Source: Synechococcus sp. WH 8101 (GTDB taxonomy: Bacteria > Cyanobacteriota > Cyanobacteriia > PCC-6307 > Cyanobiaceae). Taken from it: a DNA stretch of 64,000 nucleotides. Position numbers and translations under genes: made by a program. This document shows positions 48,734 through 54,921 of the stretch, piece by piece; the first letter of the stretch is position 1, and every line of letters starts with the position of its first letter. The notes under the pieces were generated by a model. That model saw nothing but the letters and a program-made list of their open reading frames with translations. It was not told the origin of the DNA and did no database searches. The DNA lies in NCBI RefSeq assembly GCF_004209775.1, contig NZ_CP035914.1, positions 1,488,001 to 1,552,000 on the forward strand, written 5' to 3'.

Positions 48734-49190
48734 CACCATCACTCCGTCCAGATGACGTCATCCAATCCGTCAACGTCAGTGGCTGGAACTTGGCGACGCT
48801 CAGGGTCCAGCCGCGGCCGGCCATCGCCCGAAGGCCGGCCTGGAACGCTGGGGTATCCCCCGTGTTCAGCCAGGCGGCCTTGAGAGCCGGCAAGTCTTCC
48901 GGCAACCGCTCCATCGGCAACTCCACCAGCAGCAGACTGTCCAGCCCGCAGGCGCGGCGTAGCGGTCCGTCATCACTGCGCTGCCACACACGCAGCAACA
49001 GCTCCAGCGCCAGGACATGCGCCACCTCCAAGGGCTGCTCAGCCGCAGCAGCCTCGGCCGTGAGCGAGCGACCGGCCAGAGGCAAGGCCCGTCGCCCCTC
49101 CTGCTCGATCAGGGCCAGAGCGACGAGATAGGGAGCCTCAGCCATCAGGAACGCGCCAATGGGCGCATCCTCACCGATCACCCACGCCAT
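48726..49190 (-). CDS. unrecognised protein, 154 aa, divergent from umuD
   Basis: The protein starts MAWVIGEDAPIGAFLMAEAP and is mostly helical and leucine-rich (VAHVLALELLLRVWQRSDDG, LLLVELPMERLPEDLPALKA). It lacks a clear signal peptide and no family is recognised. ATG 49190 lies 45 bp from the umuD start on the other strand, so the two share a regulatory region. It is the first of two unknown genes read leftwards. Confidence 0.65.
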   Translation of the reverse strand: MAWVIGEDAPIGAFLMAEAPYLVALALIEQEGRRALPLAGRSLTAEAAAAEQPLEVAHVLALELLLRVWQRSDDGPLRRACGLDSLLLVELPMERLPEDLPALKAAWLNTGDTPAFQAGLRAMAGRGWTLSVAKFQPLTLTDWMTSSGRSDGDA

Positions 49191-49235
49191 CGCCGGAGAA
49201 CGCCTGTACTATTGCGGTGCGTTAGATGGTCTCCT

Positions 49236-49679
49236 TTGGCGGTCGATCGCTCCTCTCTTCAGCCCCCGCTGCCCCTGCGGGCCCAGCGCCAGCCCCTGCT
49301 GCTGCCTCTGGCGGGCGAACGTGTCGCGGCGGGGTTCCCCTCACCCGCCGACGACTACGTGGAGGTGGGCATCGATCTCAACGACCAGCTGATTCGCCAT
49401 CCCCTCAGCACCTTCTTCCTGCGGGTGAGCGGCGATTCCATGCTCGGCGCCGGCATCCACGACGGCGACCTGCTGGTGGTGGACCGCAGCCTTGAACCCA
49501 GACCAGGCCGGGTGGTGGTGGCCGTGCTCGATGGCGCCTTCACCCTCAAACGCCTGGCCCGCCATCGCGGCCAGCTGCGCCTGGAGGCGGCCAACCCCGA
49601 CTATCCCCCCCTCGATCTGCACCGCTGCGGTGACGTGCAGATCTGGGGGGTGGCAATCCATGTGATTCACCCCCTGTGA
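49236..49679 (+). CDS. umuD: UmuD-type LexA-fold self-cleaving protein
   Basis: This protein of about 147 aa belongs to the S24 peptidase family. It has a candidate self-cleavage site A32-G33 (VAAGFPSPADDYVE), the catalytic Ser68 in VSGDSMLG and Lys105 in AFTLKRLAR. RecA-stimulated cleavage would give UmuD', the subunit of polymerase V. The first in-frame start consistent with the family is TTG 49236. A TACTAT -10-like element lies at 49207-49212, but I see no convincing cyanobacterial LexA box. umuC follows after 33 bp. Confidence 0.9.
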   Translation: MAVDRSSLQPPLPLRAQRQPLLLPLAGERVAAGFPSPADDYVEVGIDLNDQLIRHPLSTFFLRVSGDSMLGAGIHDGDLLVVDRSLEPRPGRVVVAVLDGAFTLKRLARHRGQLRLEAANPDYPPLDLHRCGDVQIWGVAIHVIHPL

Positions 49680-49712
49680 TCCACCCGCTCTGAGCCCTCA
49701 GAACGCAGCGCC

Positions 49713-50987
49713 ATGCCTGCCGCCACGGCACTGATTGATGCCAACAACTTCTATGCCTCCTGCGAGCAGAGCCTCGATCCCTCCCTGATCGGCCGGCCGG
49801 TGGTGGTGCTCTCCAACAACGATGGCTGCATCGTGGCCCGAAGCGCCGAAGCCCGGGCCCTGGGCATCGCCATGGGCACGCCATTCTTCAAGGCAAAACG
49901 GGAGCTGGAACGCCATGGCGTGGTGGTGCGCAGCTCGAACTACGCCCTCTACGCCGACATGAGCCAGCGGCTGATGAGCCTGCTGGAGAGGCAGGTGGAA
50001 GACCTGGAGATCTATTCGATCGACGAAGCCTTTGCACGCCTGAGCCGACCGGCCGACGGCGACCTGCTGGCCTGGGGGCGACACCTACGCGCCCTGATCC
50101 GTCGCAATCTGGGCCTCTCCATCTGCATCGGCCTGGGGGCGAGCAAAGGGCAGGCCAAACTCGCCAACCGCCTGGCCAAAATGGTGGCGGCCCATGCCGG
50201 CCTGTTCGACCTGACGCGGTGCAGCGACCCCGACCGCTGGCTGGAAACCATCGCGATCGAGGATGTGTGGGGCATCGGCCGCCAGTTGGCCCACTGGTGT
50301 CGAGCGCGGGGGGTGACCCACGCCCGGGCACTGCGCGACATGCCCAGCGGCATCCTGCGGGCCAAGGCGGGGGTCGTGGGAGTGCGGCTGCAGCGAGAGC
50401 TGCAGGGTCACAGCTGCCTGCCGCTGGAGCTGACGCCCGCACCGAAGCGGGAAACCTGTGTGAGCCGCAGCTTCAGCCGACCGATCACCGGCCTGGAGGA
50501 GCTGCGCGAGGCGGTGGCCACCTACGTGGTGCGCGCCGCCGAAAAATTACGCCAGCAGCATCAGCGCGCCGCCGCCCTCAGCGTCTACACCCGCACCAGT
50601 CCCTTCGTCCCCGGTTTCTACAGCAACACCGCCAGCACCCGTCTGGACCTACCCAGCAACGACACCCAGGCGCTGCTCAACGCAGCTTTACCTCTGGTGG
50701 AGCGGATTTTTCAGCCGCACCGCCAACTCGCCAAAGCCGGCGTGTTGATGCAGCACCTGGAGAGCACCGACCAGCTGCAACATCACCTGCTGGTGCCCTG
50801 CAGCGCCGCCGAGCAACAGCGTCGGCAGGCGCTGATGGCCACGATCGATGCACTAAACCGGCGCTATGGCCGTGGCACGGTGCAATGGGCCGCCTGTGGC
50901 CTGGATCCGAGTTGGGCGATGCGGCGGGAACGGCTGGGCCGGGCCGCCACGACCCGACTGCGTGATGTGCCGATCGTGCAGGCCTGA
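49713..50987 (+). CDS. umuC: Y-family DNA polymerase UmuC
   Basis: This 424-aa catalytic subunit of translesion polymerase V has the palm residues D9 (LIDANNFYASCE) and D104-E105 (IYSIDEAF), the helix-hairpin-helix thumb (IEDVWGIGRQL), and the UmuC-specific C-terminus. It pairs with umuD upstream for error-prone bypass of UV damage, sensible for a surface phototroph. ATG 49713 is clear. Confidence 0.96.
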   Translation: MPAATALIDANNFYASCEQSLDPSLIGRPVVVLSNNDGCIVARSAEARALGIAMGTPFFKAKRELERHGVVVRSSNYALYADMSQRLMSLLERQVEDLEIYSIDEAFARLSRPADGDLLAWGRHLRALIRRNLGLSICIGLGASKGQAKLANRLAKMVAAHAGLFDLTRCSDPDRWLETIAIEDVWGIGRQLAHWCRARGVTHARALRDMPSGILRAKAGVVGVRLQRELQGHSCLPLELTPAPKRETCVSRSFSRPITGLEELREAVATYVVRAAEKLRQQHQRAAALSVYTRTSPFVPGFYSNTASTRLDLPSNDTQALLNAALPLVERIFQPHRQLAKAGVLMQHLESTDQLQHHLLVPCSAAEQQRRQALMATIDALNRRYGRGTVQWAACGLDPSWAMRRERLGRAATTRLRDVPIVQA

Positions 50988-51024
50988 GCCACGATGTCAA
51001 GCAGCACACAACCCAGAGATCAGC

Positions 51025-52149
51025 ATGAACAAAGTGCTCAGAACGCTGGCCACAGCCCTGGCGGGGGTGGGACTGCTCGGAAGCACGGTGGGGACGCCGA
51101 CCCAGGCCTGCACCAGCTTCACCTTGAAGGGCAATGACGGTGGCCATGTGTATGGCCGCACGATGGAATTCGGCCAACCGCTAAACAGCGAGGCGGTTCT
51201 GATTCAGCGGGGCACGCCGTTACGCGGCAATGGACCCAACGGCGGCATCGGCAATGGCCTGGCCTGGACCAGTCGCTACGCGGTGGTGGGCATGAACGCC
51301 CTGGGCCTCAAGGATGTGGTGCCCGATGGCATGAATGAGAAGGGGTTGGCGGGCGGCCTGCTCTATTTCGCTGGCTATGCAGACTTTCAGACAGTGCCGG
51401 CAGGGCAGACGAAGCGATCGATCAACAGCGCCCAACTACTCACCTATGTGCTGACCAACTTCGCCACCATCGAGGAGGTGAAGCAAGGACTTCCCAAGAT
51501 TCTGGTCAATGGAGCCGCCGTGAAGGCCTTCGGCGGACCGCTGCCCATCCACATGACGCTGCATGACAGCAGCGGCAAAAGCCTGTCCGTGGAATACATC
51601 CAAGGGGAGCTGACCATGATGGACAACCCCACGGGGACCTACACCAACGATCCACCCTTTCCTTATCACCTGGCGACGGCAGGGAATTACGCCAACTTGA
51701 GCGCCATGCCACCGGCGGAGATGACGATCAATGGTCTGAAGCTGCCACCCACCAGCACCGGTGGGGGCCTGCATGGCCTGCCCGGAGATTTCCTCTCCAC
51801 CTCCCGCTTCATTCGTGCCCTGCTGCTCAGCCGCTTCGCACCAACCAATCTCAGCACCCGGCAACAGGTGGGCACCGCCTTCCGGCTGTTGGGCCAATTT
51901 GACCTGCCACCGGGGAGCATTCTGCTGCCGCCAGGTGGGTCTTTCGGTGGTGCCGGATCCACAACCACTTACGAGATCACGGAATGGACCGTGGCAGCGG
52001 ATCAGAAAAACCTGGTGTATTACATCCAGACCTATGACAATCCCGGCTTACGCAGTCTGAATTTCGACCAGCTGCCCCTCGATGGAGGAACAATCAAGGT
52101 GATGCCGTTGAATCAACCTCTCGACGTGACAGTGCTGACTCCCTCCTGA
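51025..52149 (+). CDS. secreted choloylglycine-hydrolase-family (linear amide C-N) hydrolase
   Basis: This 374-aa Ntn hydrolase has a signal peptide (residues 1-28, MNKVLRTLATALAGVGLLGS, then PTQA). The nucleophile C29 follows the predicted cleavage point (CTSFTLKG), so export processing would expose it. The family's GRTMEF (R45, E48) and DGMNEKGLAGGLL blocks are present. Relatives cleave bile salts, penicillin V or acyl-homoserine lactones. In a marine phototroph an N-acyl amide or signalling substrate is more likely than bile. ATG 51025 is clear. It stands 37 bp after umuC. Confidence 0.88.
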   Translation: MNKVLRTLATALAGVGLLGSTVGTPTQACTSFTLKGNDGGHVYGRTMEFGQPLNSEAVLIQRGTPLRGNGPNGGIGNGLAWTSRYAVVGMNALGLKDVVPDGMNEKGLAGGLLYFAGYADFQTVPAGQTKRSINSAQLLTYVLTNFATIEEVKQGLPKILVNGAAVKAFGGPLPIHMTLHDSSGKSLSVEYIQGELTMMDNPTGTYTNDPPFPYHLATAGNYANLSAMPPAEMTINGLKLPPTSTGGGLHGLPGDFLSTSRFIRALLLSRFAPTNLSTRQQVGTAFRLLGQFDLPPGSILLPPGGSFGGAGSTTTYEITEWTVAADQKNLVYYIQTYDNPGLRSLNFDQLPLDGGTIKVMPLNQPLDVTVLTPS

Positions 52150-52156
52150 GCCGAGC

Positions 52157-52453
52157 TCAGATGTGCTGAAGCAGCTGCACAGCCTGCTCGCGCTGGCTGA
52201 GCAGCAACACCATCCGCTCGCCGTGGCTGTTGAGACCGGTCTGCTCCCGGAGCAGATCGTTGCTGGCCAGGGCCAGACCGCAGGTTTCACAGAACAGCAC
52301 CGGCAGGGTGCCGTCATGGCCAGCCATCCCCTGAAGGTCGAGGGCCTGACGCACGGCCCGCTGCGCTCTCTCAAGACCGAGTCGTTCCACCAGAGCTGGC
52401 CAGAGGTGGTTGACGGGGGTGCAGCTGGCGAAATCAAACGACGACGCTGTCAT
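52157..52453 (-). CDS. 98-aa protein with CxxC motif, end of ACR3 operon
   Basis: The protein starts MTASSFDFASCTPVNHLWPA and has a FCETCGLALAS segment (CxxC) plus one more cysteine near the N-terminus. Its C-terminus is leucine-rich (ERMVLLLSQREQAVQLLQHI). No family is recognised. ATG 52453 is used, and an adjacent TTG gives one more residue. It lies 4 bp past the stop of the upstream gene, so it belongs to the ACR3 transcript. Confidence 0.7.
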   Translation of the reverse strand: MTASSFDFASCTPVNHLWPALVERLGLERAQRAVRQALDLQGMAGHDGTLPVLFCETCGLALASNDLLREQTGLNSHGERMVLLLSQREQAVQLLQHI

Positions 52454-52457
52454 CAAA

Positions 52458-52715
52458 TCAGACCGGGAGCTGCTCGATCGCGACCACGATCATCTGCGGT
52501 GTGACCGGGATCGTCTCCAGTGCATCCTCGTTGTCGAGATAGGCGTCGAAGGAGGCGAAGCGTTCGATCCGAGGGGCTGCACCTTCGGCGGCACAGGCCT
52601 CAATCCAGTCGTTGTCGTCGGGCTTCACCGCCACGTAGGCCTGAAGGGCTTCCTGCAGGTCGCCACCATCGCCGATGCCCTCCCCGTGCCAGATCGCTTC
52701 AAAAAATTCAGACAT
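52458..52715 (-). CDS. 85-aa small acidic protein in ACR3 operon
   Basis: The protein starts [20 protein letters not shown] and has a strongly acidic composition with alternating predicted helix and strand ([34 protein letters not shown]). It resembles no family I can name. ATG 52715 overlaps the ACR3 stop by 8 bp, so translation is likely coupled to the permease. Confidence 0.7.
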
Positions 52716-53751
52716 GGCCCGTGGGGAACAGACGACGGTTGCGGTTGGCGATCGCCACCAACGACAGCATGACCGGAACTTCCACCAGCACACCCACCAC
52801 GGTGGCTAACGCAGCACCGGACTGCAAGCCAAACAGACTGATGGCCACGGCGACCGCCAGCTCGAAAAAGTTCGATGCCCCGATCATCGCTCCCGGCGCA
52901 GCAATCGCGTGCGGTTGCCTCCAAAGGCGCATCCACTGGGCGCTGATCCAGAAGATCAGATAGGTCTGAAGGATCAGGGGTACGGCGATCAAGGCGATGG
53001 CCAGGGGATCCGCCAGGATTGATTCGGCCTGCACCATGAACAGCAGCAACACGGTGCCGATGAGGCACACCACGGTGAGCGGTTTCAGGCGTTGTTCCAG
53101 CCGCTCAATCCGGCCGGGCGACCTGAGGAACACCCTCGTGAGCCAGCCGGCCGTGAGCGGCACCACCACAAACAAGCCGACAGCAGCAATCAACGTGTTC
53201 CAGGGCACCAGAACCTCACTCACCCCCAGCAGCAGGGCGGCAATCGGTGCGAAGGCGAACACCATGATCAGATCGTTCACCGCCACTTGCACGAGGGTGT
53301 AGTTGGCATCTCCGTCGCTGAGACGGCTCCACACAAACACCATCGCCGTGCAGGGAGCCACGCCGAGCAGGATCATGCCAGCCACGTACTGATCCCCGAG
53401 CTCGGCAGGGATCCAGGCAGAAAACAAGCCACGGATGAACAGCCAGGCCAGCGCCGTCATCGTGAGGGGTTTGATCAACCAGTTCACCACCACGGTGATG
53501 AGCAGACCGCGGGGCTGACGGCTGAGACCACCGATCGCGGCGAAATCCACCGCCAGCATCATCGGGTAGATCATGCCCCAGATCAGCAGAGCGATCGGCA
53601 GGTTGATCCCAGCCACCTCAAGGGAGGCGATCGCCTGCGGCCATGCGGGCACAGCCGCCCCGAGGGCCACACCGGCAAGGATCGCCAAAGCCACCCACAC
53701 ACTGAGATACCGCTCAAAGATGCCCATCAAATTTCGAGAGTGTGTCGTCAT
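52708..53751 (-). CDS. ACR3 family arsenite efflux permease
   Basis: This 347-aa, ten-span permease expels arsenite (or antimonite) from the cytoplasm. The conserved cysteine C134 lies in [13 protein letters not shown], and [18 protein letters not shown] carries the essential glutamate region near the C-terminus. ATG 53751 ([16 protein letters not shown]) is preferred; ATG 53727 (MGIFERYL) is possible. A GTCAT-N7-ATGAC inverted repeat (53747-53763) overlaps the start. No arsR or arsC lies nearby. It diverges from a low-GC flavoprotein gene. Confidence 0.92.
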
Positions 53752-53862
53752 ATTGTCGATGACACCATGCGCCGCCATGCAGCCAAGCAACCCTACACAG
53801 CTGCTTACATAGAATCTACGAGACTGAAAAGAGGCGCAGTTTCGCTGGGAACCAAATTAAAG

Positions 53863-54921
53863 ATGGCTTCAACTCAAAACCAGACTCGAGAAGTCAATGT
53901 CGATGTTTTGATCGTGGGACTTGGGCCAGCTGGTACCGCCTGCGGCCTGGAACTCAACGCAACAGGCATCAAGGTGCTTGGTATCGACCGAAGCCACTTC
54001 CCTCGCGACAAGATTTGCGGTGATGCACTTCCTACAGAAGCACAGTTCGAGGTCGACAGGCTCGGACTGGGACAGTCTTGCCCTGAAATAAGGACAACAT
54101 CACGATTTGCGCAATGGAGCCCAGACGGGAGCCCAAGCTATCAACACTGCTTTCAAACACAAGCGCCCATTTTCCAGGCCATTCGGCGATACGATCTTGA
54201 CAATTGGCTTGTTAGACAATGCGCCAGCGAAGGGCTCTGGATGGAATTCGGCTGGAAAGTGCAAGTGATCCAACGCGACAACAAGAATAAGACGTGGATT
54301 GCCAGCGGATCAATACACTCAAAAAGAGGCCTAAGAATCGGCTCATTTTCGATTTATACGCGCTGCATCGTTGGCTGTGACGGAGTTGGCTCTGTTGTAA
54401 GGCGTGCAACAGAACGAAGCAAAGAAACAAAAACCATTGTCCTGGCATCGAGGTGCTATCGACTAGTCGATCCCAGTAGGAATCACAACCAGTCGACCAT
54501 TGCATTTCGCTGGCAAGGAACGGGGGCATACTCCTGGCGTTTCGCAGTGCCGGGTGGACACAACTGCGGCATCGCTTGGCTTTGCCAGTCGGATCAACCA
54601 AAAATCTCAGGAAAAGCCATCATAGATCTCACTCGGACGCTCGAGCCAGGCTGCCGAGACGTCCGCACCATGGGGCTCCCTATCCTTCAATCTATTCCTT
54701 CGATCGATGGCGCTGAAGGAATTTTTCTTTGCGGAGATGCCGCCTGCTTGGTCGATCCACTGCTGGGCCACGGAATCGATCGTGCCATGAAAAGCGGAAA
54801 GCTCGCTGGCAAGGCATTGAGGGAGAGCCTGAAGAAGGGCGAAAAGCCTGCAGAAACGAGCTTTCGTTATCGAGAAAACCTAGCGAAACAATGCAACGAA
54901 TGGCTGAATCGTTGCTCATAA
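53863..54921 (+). CDS. FAD-dependent oxidoreductase, probably horizontally acquired
   Basis: This 352-aa flavoprotein belongs to the geranylgeranyl-reductase/halogenase-like superfamily. It has the FAD dinucleotide fold (VLIVGLGPAGTACGLEL, residues 15-31), FPRDKICGDALPTEAQ, and the second FAD motif FLCGDAACLVDPLLGHG near residue 290. Base composition is visibly more A/T-rich than its neighbours, with AAA, AAT and ATA codons frequent, which suggests transfer. The substrate is unknown. ATG 53863 starts the domain. It diverges from the ACR3 gene and its stop lies close to the end of dnaG. Confidence 0.85.
   Translation: MASTQNQTREVNVDVLIVGLGPAGTACGLELNATGIKVLGIDRSHFPRDKICGDALPTEAQFEVDRLGLGQSCPEIRTTSRFAQWSPDGSPSYQHCFQTQAPIFQAIRRYDLDNWLVRQCASEGLWMEFGWKVQVIQRDNKNKTWIASGSIHSKRGLRIGSFSIYTRCIVGCDGVGSVVRRATERSKETKTIVLASRCYRLVDPSRNHNQSTIAFRWQGTGAYSWRFAVPGGHNCGIAWLCQSDQPKISGKAIIDLTRTLEPGCRDVRTMGLPILQSIPSIDGAEGIFLCGDAACLVDPLLGHGIDRAMKSGKLAGKALRESLKKGEKPAETSFRYRENLAKQCNEWLNRCS

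Follow-up and report, generated by a model that had tools for sequence, protein, structure and literature searches.

The window analysed here, a stretch of 64,000 nucleotides of Synechococcus sp. WH 8101, contains a gene whose product is quite probably a member of the choloylglycine hydrolase family (Pfam CBAH, MEROPS C59), namely, a cysteine Ntn-hydrolase that is exported and becomes active at removal of its signal peptide, a confidence that does not extend to its substrate. The protein is most likely a periplasmic or extracellular amide hydrolase, and its task would most likely be to hydrolyse N-acyl amides that the cell meets beyond its cytoplasm, either as nutrients or to detoxify them; N-acyl amino acids and similar compounds are a guess at the substrate.

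Identification of the gene and its family

PF02275 matches a single gene in the genome around the window (2.63 Mb, one contig), namely, a 374-codon open reading frame that begins with an ATG at 51025 and ends with a TGA at 52149. The features used in our analysis, in positions of the window, are as follows.

49017-49679, plus strand: ORF with umuD-like S24 peptidase, whose true start is probably further downstream
49713-50987, plus strand: umuC-like Y-family polymerase, 37 bp upstream of the gene under study
51025-52149, plus strand: CDS of the predicted exported choloylglycine-hydrolase-family amide hydrolase (Pfam CBAH), 374 aa, Glu-type
51025-51108, plus strand: predicted signal peptide, residues 1-28, with cleavage predicted at A28|C29
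51109-52146, plus strand: mature Ntn-hydrolase domain, residues 29-374 (AlphaFold2 model; PDB matches 2oqc and 3pva)
51109-51111, plus strand: Cys29, predicted N-terminal nucleophile, Cys1 of the mature enzyme
51157-51159, plus strand: Arg45, Arg17 of the mature enzyme and Arg18 in literature numbering
51166-51168, plus strand: Glu48, mature position 20 (Asp20/Asp21 in the solved relatives seen)
51364-51366, plus strand: Tyr114, equivalent to Tyr82 of 3pva, the oxyanion-hole backbone position, aromatic as in Gram-positive penicillin V acylases
51646-51648, plus strand: Asn208, equivalent to Asn175, oxyanion hole
51805-51807, plus strand: Arg261, equivalent to Arg228, predicted transition-state/substrate contact

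The CBAH profile covers residues 29-356 over its positions 1-312 of 316 with an E-value of 2e-55 (189.1 bits against a cut-off of 20.4), and the match starts exactly at Cys29. Besides this whole-domain score, the family is recognized by an N-terminal Cys with Arg, Asn and Arg partners, which are found here as C29, R45, N208 and R261, and by the alpha-beta-beta-alpha Ntn fold, which is found in the predicted model (compared with 2oqc); on the other hand, the Asp that partners the alpha-amino group in characterised enzymes (Asp20/21) is replaced by Glu48. A phmmer search aligned the protein with the penicillin V acylase 3pva of B. sphaericus (E-value 3.1e-35), putting Cys29 on Cys1 and R-T-M-E-F on R-T-M-D-F, with R45 on Arg17, E48 on Asp20, Y114 on Tyr82, N208 on Asn175 and R261 on Arg228. 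The initial annotation had assigned the protein to this family from the letters alone, and both the CBAH score and the 3pva alignment bear it out; it had also read a signal peptide followed by C29-T-S-F, and a G-R-T-M-E-F motif, which indeed lie with the Cys at residue 29 (codon 51109-51111) and at residues 44-49, respectively.

An AlphaFold2 model built with 28 sequences has a mean pLDDT of 84.2 and a pTM of 0.87, with poorly predicted loops at mature positions 216-226 and 275-286. When aligned by VIA-align, the model gave Z-scores of 39.5 with 2oqc (rmsd 3.1 over 303 residues), 39.1 with 3pva (rmsd 2.4 over 299 residues) and 36.7 with the bile salt hydrolase (BSH) 6ufy of B. thetaiotaomicron, and Foldseek ranked the same enzyme group first. 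The fold as predicted fits that of penicillin V acylases (PVAs), and a fold of this kind does not name the substrate.

Signal peptide and maturation

A predicted Sec-type signal peptide ends directly before Cys29, and its pattern is beyond chance when the clade of close relatives of the protein (the window clade, see below) is considered. The 30 residues preceding the Cys are divergent among the 17 distinct clade members, each of which nevertheless has an 11-residue stretch with a mean Kyte-Doolittle value of 2.0-3.0, and all 17 have Ala at position -1 and 16 have A, T or S at position -3, although these related rows do not amount to 17 independent events. The window protein has Thr at -3, where Ala is commoner in the clade, which we counted against our main reading. 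Of the 40 Glu-type rows of our alignment, 35 have Ala at position -1, four have Met and one has Gly; the Met cases look like cytosolic forms without a signal peptide, in which removal of the Met, if it is the start, would free the Cys. Thus, by either the signal-peptide or the Met-removal route, the Cys would become the first residue.

From this pattern we infer that signal peptidase I cuts at A28|C29 and that the protein is probably exported. The precursor would be exported via Sec, and the cut would leave Cys29 as a free N-terminus without a self-cleaved propeptide, so the proposal that the nucleophile is created by signal-peptide cleavage gains support from a predicted site placed just where it would free the putative Cys nucleophile. 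The alternative that Cys29 is acylated, as in a lipoprotein, or internal, with no activation by signal peptidase I, draws on the fact that lipoproteins also place a Cys right after the signal region, but we consider it extremely unlikely, given that the lipobox pattern matched none of the 17 clade members and that the catalytic residue of characterised family members is Cys1, according to a section of PMC8066178.

Active site and the Glu/Asp position

We collected homologues from genome searches, a related-locus search and a plasmid collection, 87 loci in total, and reduced them to 65 distinct alignment rows by removing those with no match (L067-L069) or with a missing N-terminal part (L037, L064, L065 and L087) and by merging identical mature sequences. 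Rows were selected by the Cys and an R-[TSN]-x-[DE] motif; therefore, the Cys and the Arg45 equivalent, found in 65/65 rows each, are no independent test of conservation. The Asn175 position is Asn in all 65 rows, and the Arg228 position is Arg in 64 and Lys in one. Mature position 20 is Glu in 40 of the 65 distinct homologues and Asp in the other 25, proportions that are not family-wide frequencies since both the window protein and the Pfam model served as queries in collecting the rows. At the Tyr82 position, Tyr is found in 33 of the 40 Glu-type and 15 of the 25 Asp-type rows, and Asn in three Glu-type rows, including L024 of the window's own clade, and in two Asp-type rows.

The Glu noted by the initial annotation in place of the usual Asp is therefore real and aligned with the canonical Asp, but it is not peculiar to the window protein. 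Those 11 of the listed PDB chains that have a printed alignment at position 20 all have Asp there, so that, with Glu in 40/65 homologues, Asp appears as a mark of the enzymes studied so far rather than of the whole family. Simulations of C. perfringens CBAH, as described in part of PMC3289653, indicate that Asp21 bonds the amino group of Cys2, that it mainly tunes the pKa of Cys2 with little effect on the barrier, and that its backbone oxygen bonds the leaving group. Since the effect of Asp21 in that account is such a modulation, Glu would be a tolerable stand-in, and by analogy it could keep both the charge and the backbone contact. Against our main reading we counted the extra methylene of Glu relative to Asp, at the very residue bonded to the amino group of the nucleophile.

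In the mechanism that we propose, the thiolate of Cys29 would attack a small acyl or aryl-acyl amide, the oxyanion would be held by Tyr114 through its backbone NH and by Asn208 through its side chain, and Arg45 together with Glu48, the latter doing the job of Asp, would control how the amino and thiol groups of the Cys are charged. Arg261 would bind the leaving-group side, and water would release the acyl group.

Phylogeny of Glu-type and Asp-type proteins

The Glu/Asp exchange is not the sole difference between the two types. All 40 Glu-type rows have Gly at mature position 50 and, likewise, at position 218 (40/40 each), and the stretch around mature positions 195-218 is kept in the Glu type, whereas 22 or 23 of the 25 Asp-type rows have a gap at most of its columns. 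The best matches of an Asp-type cyanobacterial protein (L056) are the solved B. thetaiotaomicron BSH, AtPVA and PaPVA, all with Asp in the printed alignments. We built a tree of 62 rows, leaving out L012, L046 and L066, in which a fully supported branch splits 21 Asp-type rows from 39 Glu rows plus two Gram-positive Asp rows, though the deep order is unsure since several long branches meet. Glu may or may not mark a single origin: the best tree needs two Glu/Asp changes, yet a topology with one Glu clade is not rejected (AU test, p = 0.443).

The window clade consists of 16 tree rows, all from the window's family or Cyanobium, on a branch of length 1.16 with support 100/100. In the mature part, its members are 65-98% identical to the window protein, compared with 26-37% for the other Glu-type and 22-31% for the Asp-type proteins. 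Thirteen positions are fixed or nearly so in the clade (17 rows when L046 is included) in a state unlike the commonest one of the other Glu-type rows, which is a gap at one of them. The clade also has P-Y-H-L-A-T-A-G-N-Y where 12 of the 13 other Glu-type rows printed have W-H. The phylogenetic comparison that the initial annotation had suggested thus sets the window clade apart, and a Gram-positive row annotated as bsh (L077) falls outside it. Furthermore, dN/dS ratios (NG86) are 0.05-0.14 in 17 of the 18 clade pairs (one undefined), and 0.06 to the copy of genome G181, values that are rough because many dS values exceed 1; such low ratios imply that the protein is maintained under purifying selection.

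One might go further and view the Glu-type proteins as a functionally separate class of secreted amidases, with Glu replacing Asp in the Ntn pair, in which the altered pocket of the picocyanobacterial branch serves a habitat substrate that no characterised BSH or PVA handles, under SOS control beside umuDC in some lineages; we regard this combined proposal as rather improbable.

Possible substrates

Among the candidate pockets, we find one of the PVA kind somewhat more likely than one of the bile-salt kind, based on Phe49, Tyr114 and Met47. Two traits of PVAs, an aromatic residue in place of Asn81 and a Met before the acidic residue, are present as Tyr114 and Met47, although the source of these criteria also describes the Met as widespread in Lactobacillus BSHs too (PMC8066178). 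The Asn at the Tyr position in 3/40 Glu-type rows, including L024, and the aromatic residue of the BSH 6ufy speak against a PVA-like pocket, and the NCBIfam model for YxeI-type penicillin V amidases (NF058572) gives 157.7 bits, below its cut-off of 600.

Could the protein be a bile salt hydrolase acting on the taurine- or glycine-conjugated bile salts that aquatic animals produce? It shares fold and family with BSHs, and fish release bile salts. The oxyanion position (81/82) has Tyr114, in contrast to the Asn of Gram-positive BSHs, but this does not exclude a BSH since Asn is not universal there, B. thetaiotaomicron 6ufy having an aromatic residue instead. Also against this function are the score with the NCBIfam bile salt hydrolase equivalog (NF038245, 169.7 bits against a cut-off of 350) and the position in the tree, outside the window clade, of L077, which scores above that cut-off (480.8 bits). 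We hold this function to be very unlikely, if slightly less so since the 6ufy residue was checked.

A quorum-quenching acylase that mainly cleaves acyl-homoserine lactones (AHLs) of neighbouring bacteria is also unlikely in our view, though less so. AHL acylase activity is possible since, according to parts of PMC8066178, the related AtPVA, PaPVA, L. plantarum PVA-like proteins and S. loihica Slac1/2 degrade AHLs, and the predicted exported location would suit it. But AtPVA (5j9r) and PaPVA (4wl2) match an Asp-type protein with E-values of 2.1e-118 and 1.4e-107 and the window protein only with 9.2e-17 and 2.8e-15, the S. loihica CGH (5x8z) is 16% identical, and no gene accompanies the window gene at all its sites. 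The initial annotation had proposed an exported amidase that may degrade signals or lipids of other bacteria: the export signal and the family stand, while the role in signals or lipids is left as a possibility, and for signals in particular our results lend it no support: AtPVA and PaPVA, with their reported AHL activity, carry Asp and lie near the Asp-type clade, and the gene context has no pointer to quorum quenching. The hydrolysis of N-acyl amides stated at the outset remains our preferred guess.

Distribution, loss and gene neighbourhood

In named records, the closest homologues come from Cyanobium and Synechococcus, besides a fragment from a Rubripirellula-labelled metagenome-assembled genome (MAG) and a distant match from Bacteroidia. 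Within the genus, 10 of 31 genomes have a match, eight of them clade copies at 64-100% identity and two Asp-type proteins at 32-33%; the genomes with an Asp-type choloylglycine hydrolase, G295 and G213 (L028/L047 and L048), have no Glu-type match. In the family, which we take to be Cyanobiaceae in the GTDB naming (NCBI places L031 under Prochlorococcaceae), 50 of 300 sampled genomes match, and 13 have an intact clade copy (63-100%). In the phylum, PF02275 matched in 29 of 386 sampled genomes, 20 of which are outside the family, and none of these matches placed in the tree (L064-L069 are absent from it) puts the window clade outside the family. The Rubripirellula-labelled piece (L037, contig JAAXIK010000238.1) is 96% identical to the window protein and is probably cyanobacterial contamination of the MAG; apart from this contig, the window clade was found confined to the window's family in our samples.

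Remnants of the gene were seen in several genomes. G144 has a fragment of a clade gene at 79%, both gene ends adjoin in one open frame in G269 (C2:53857-54078), and G023 has separate broken clade pieces on C1, near 2548909 and at 2653732-2654178, one of them with a stop. In G260, 61 bp right after umuC (L132, 2793-2853) are 82% identical to the last 19 codons of the gene, so this genome most likely lost it. In our reading the gene is accessory, moving between sites and frequently disappearing. A phage origin was considered and dropped, as three viral stretches matched a pattern and none encodes a relative, in a search that reaches close relatives only.

The gene follows umuC on the same strand at a distance of 37 bp, which raises the idea of an SOS-linked enzyme that acts after DNA damage and is encoded here, as the third gene, in an umuDC operon under LexA control. 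A LexA-like site lies at 49198-49210 on the minus strand in the umuD region of the window, similar sites occur at the corresponding place in the five relatives scanned (L088, L132, L134, L136 and L139), and the gene and umuD diverge from either side of such a site in four genomes of genus g10. However, the window and g10 sites fit only looser forms of the LexA consensus, the strict form being found, among the loci scanned, in L088 and L132; the 13-base motif occurs three times in the window, where 0.86 occurrences are expected, and 6 of 100 shuffled sequences yield as many. Upstream of the gene at 19 clade loci (some of them duplicates), sites were found only at the four g10 copies beside umuD, plus the match GAACTGGGGTTC in L101 and its duplicate L035, which is GC-rich and chance-like. 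Moreover, umuC is present in 29 of the 31 genus genomes, and the gene follows it in only two of the 29, namely, the window genome and G181. The scan of 48900-52300 gave no promoter-like site and is uninformative, as shuffles give only 0.4. We thus rejected SOS control as an intrinsic property of the gene, given that, apart from the L101/L035 match, LexA-like sites occur only where umuD adjoins, and we consider an SOS role at the window locus improbable, the umuDC neighbourhood being suggestive at most as a functional hint.

A conserved operon partner was likewise sought and not found: of the 40 largest ORF clusters at 17 loci (flanks of up to about 6 kb, some ended by contig ends), only the gene's own cluster spans all 17. 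The next cluster occurs in 10 loci, and its example ORF is antisense to the gene. Pfam searches of 10 hand-picked flanking proteins gave unrelated functions for eight (Clp-type ATPase, acyltransferase, zinc alcohol dehydrogenase, TauE, HD domain, histone-deacetylase-like, transposase and flavin reductase) and no match for two.

Two further genes downstream were noted. For an ACR3-family arsenite efflux gene (52711-53790), the best match at the corresponding place in G181 extends over only some 73 codons (70%); the gene is present, at 89-93%, in 4 of 14 other umuC loci. An FAD-dependent geranylgeranyl-reductase-like gene (53866-54921; 52.4% G+C compared with 64.2% for the window) has an 85% match in G181, but of the 14 other umuC loci, some of which are incomplete, only two match it, at 38%; it was probably acquired recently.

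Comparison with known enzymes

Among the papers listed by full-text searches for these enzymes in cyanobacteria, Synechococcus and Prochlorococcus, with subscription papers and supplements outside their reach, none treats a picocyanobacterial enzyme of this family, judged by title and start of abstract. The main text of three Synechococcus proteome papers has no occurrence of the terms for the enzyme family, a part of PMC7005997 lists a linear amide C-N hydrolase gene among distinct Thermosynechococcus genes with no function given, and a portion of the Brucella CGH paper (PMC3234258) yielded no residue information. We met no characterised member or activity of the Glu type, nor a solved structure among the 11 PDB chains checked at position 20; therefore, transfer of bile-salt, penicillin or AHL activity to Glu-type proteins is unsafe. 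This matters as many family members in environmental bacteria belong to the Glu-type group. Since the picocyanobacterial branch is patchy and no natural substrate was found for it, we see the window protein mostly as an ordinary member of a known family. A secreted amidase that picocyanobacteria acquire and lose could influence which N-acyl compounds circulate around abundant aquatic phototrophs.

The window protein resembles the Bacillus/Lysinibacillus PVAs 3pva and 2oqc in fold (Z 39), in the N-terminal Cys with its Arg, Asn and Arg, in Tyr at position 82 and in Met before the acidic residue, but it is only 26-28% identical to them and has Glu in place of their Asp20; in 3pva a short propeptide, which the enzyme removes itself, takes the place of a signal peptide. 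The Gram-negative PVA/BSH clade (PaPVA 4wl2, AtPVA 5j9r and B. thetaiotaomicron BSH 3hbc/6ufy) shares family and fold, and PaPVA is also named as exported, as is predicted for the window protein; however, this clade has Asp followed by Trp, is 24-25% identical, and its relatives in our alignment mostly lack the stretch around mature positions 195-218. The Shewanella loihica CGH 5x8z, with the same family fold (Z 30.6) and 16% identity, is much more distant. Closest in type are the other Glu-type proteins of cyanobacteria, Legionella adelaidensis, Desulfobaculum, Persicobacter, Parabacteroides, Acinetobacter, an E. coli plasmid and Paraclostridium, which share with the window protein Glu at position 20, the 195-218 stretch and, in most cases, a signal peptide running up to the Cys, but differ from it at their level of identity (26-37%), the window clade forming a separate branch.
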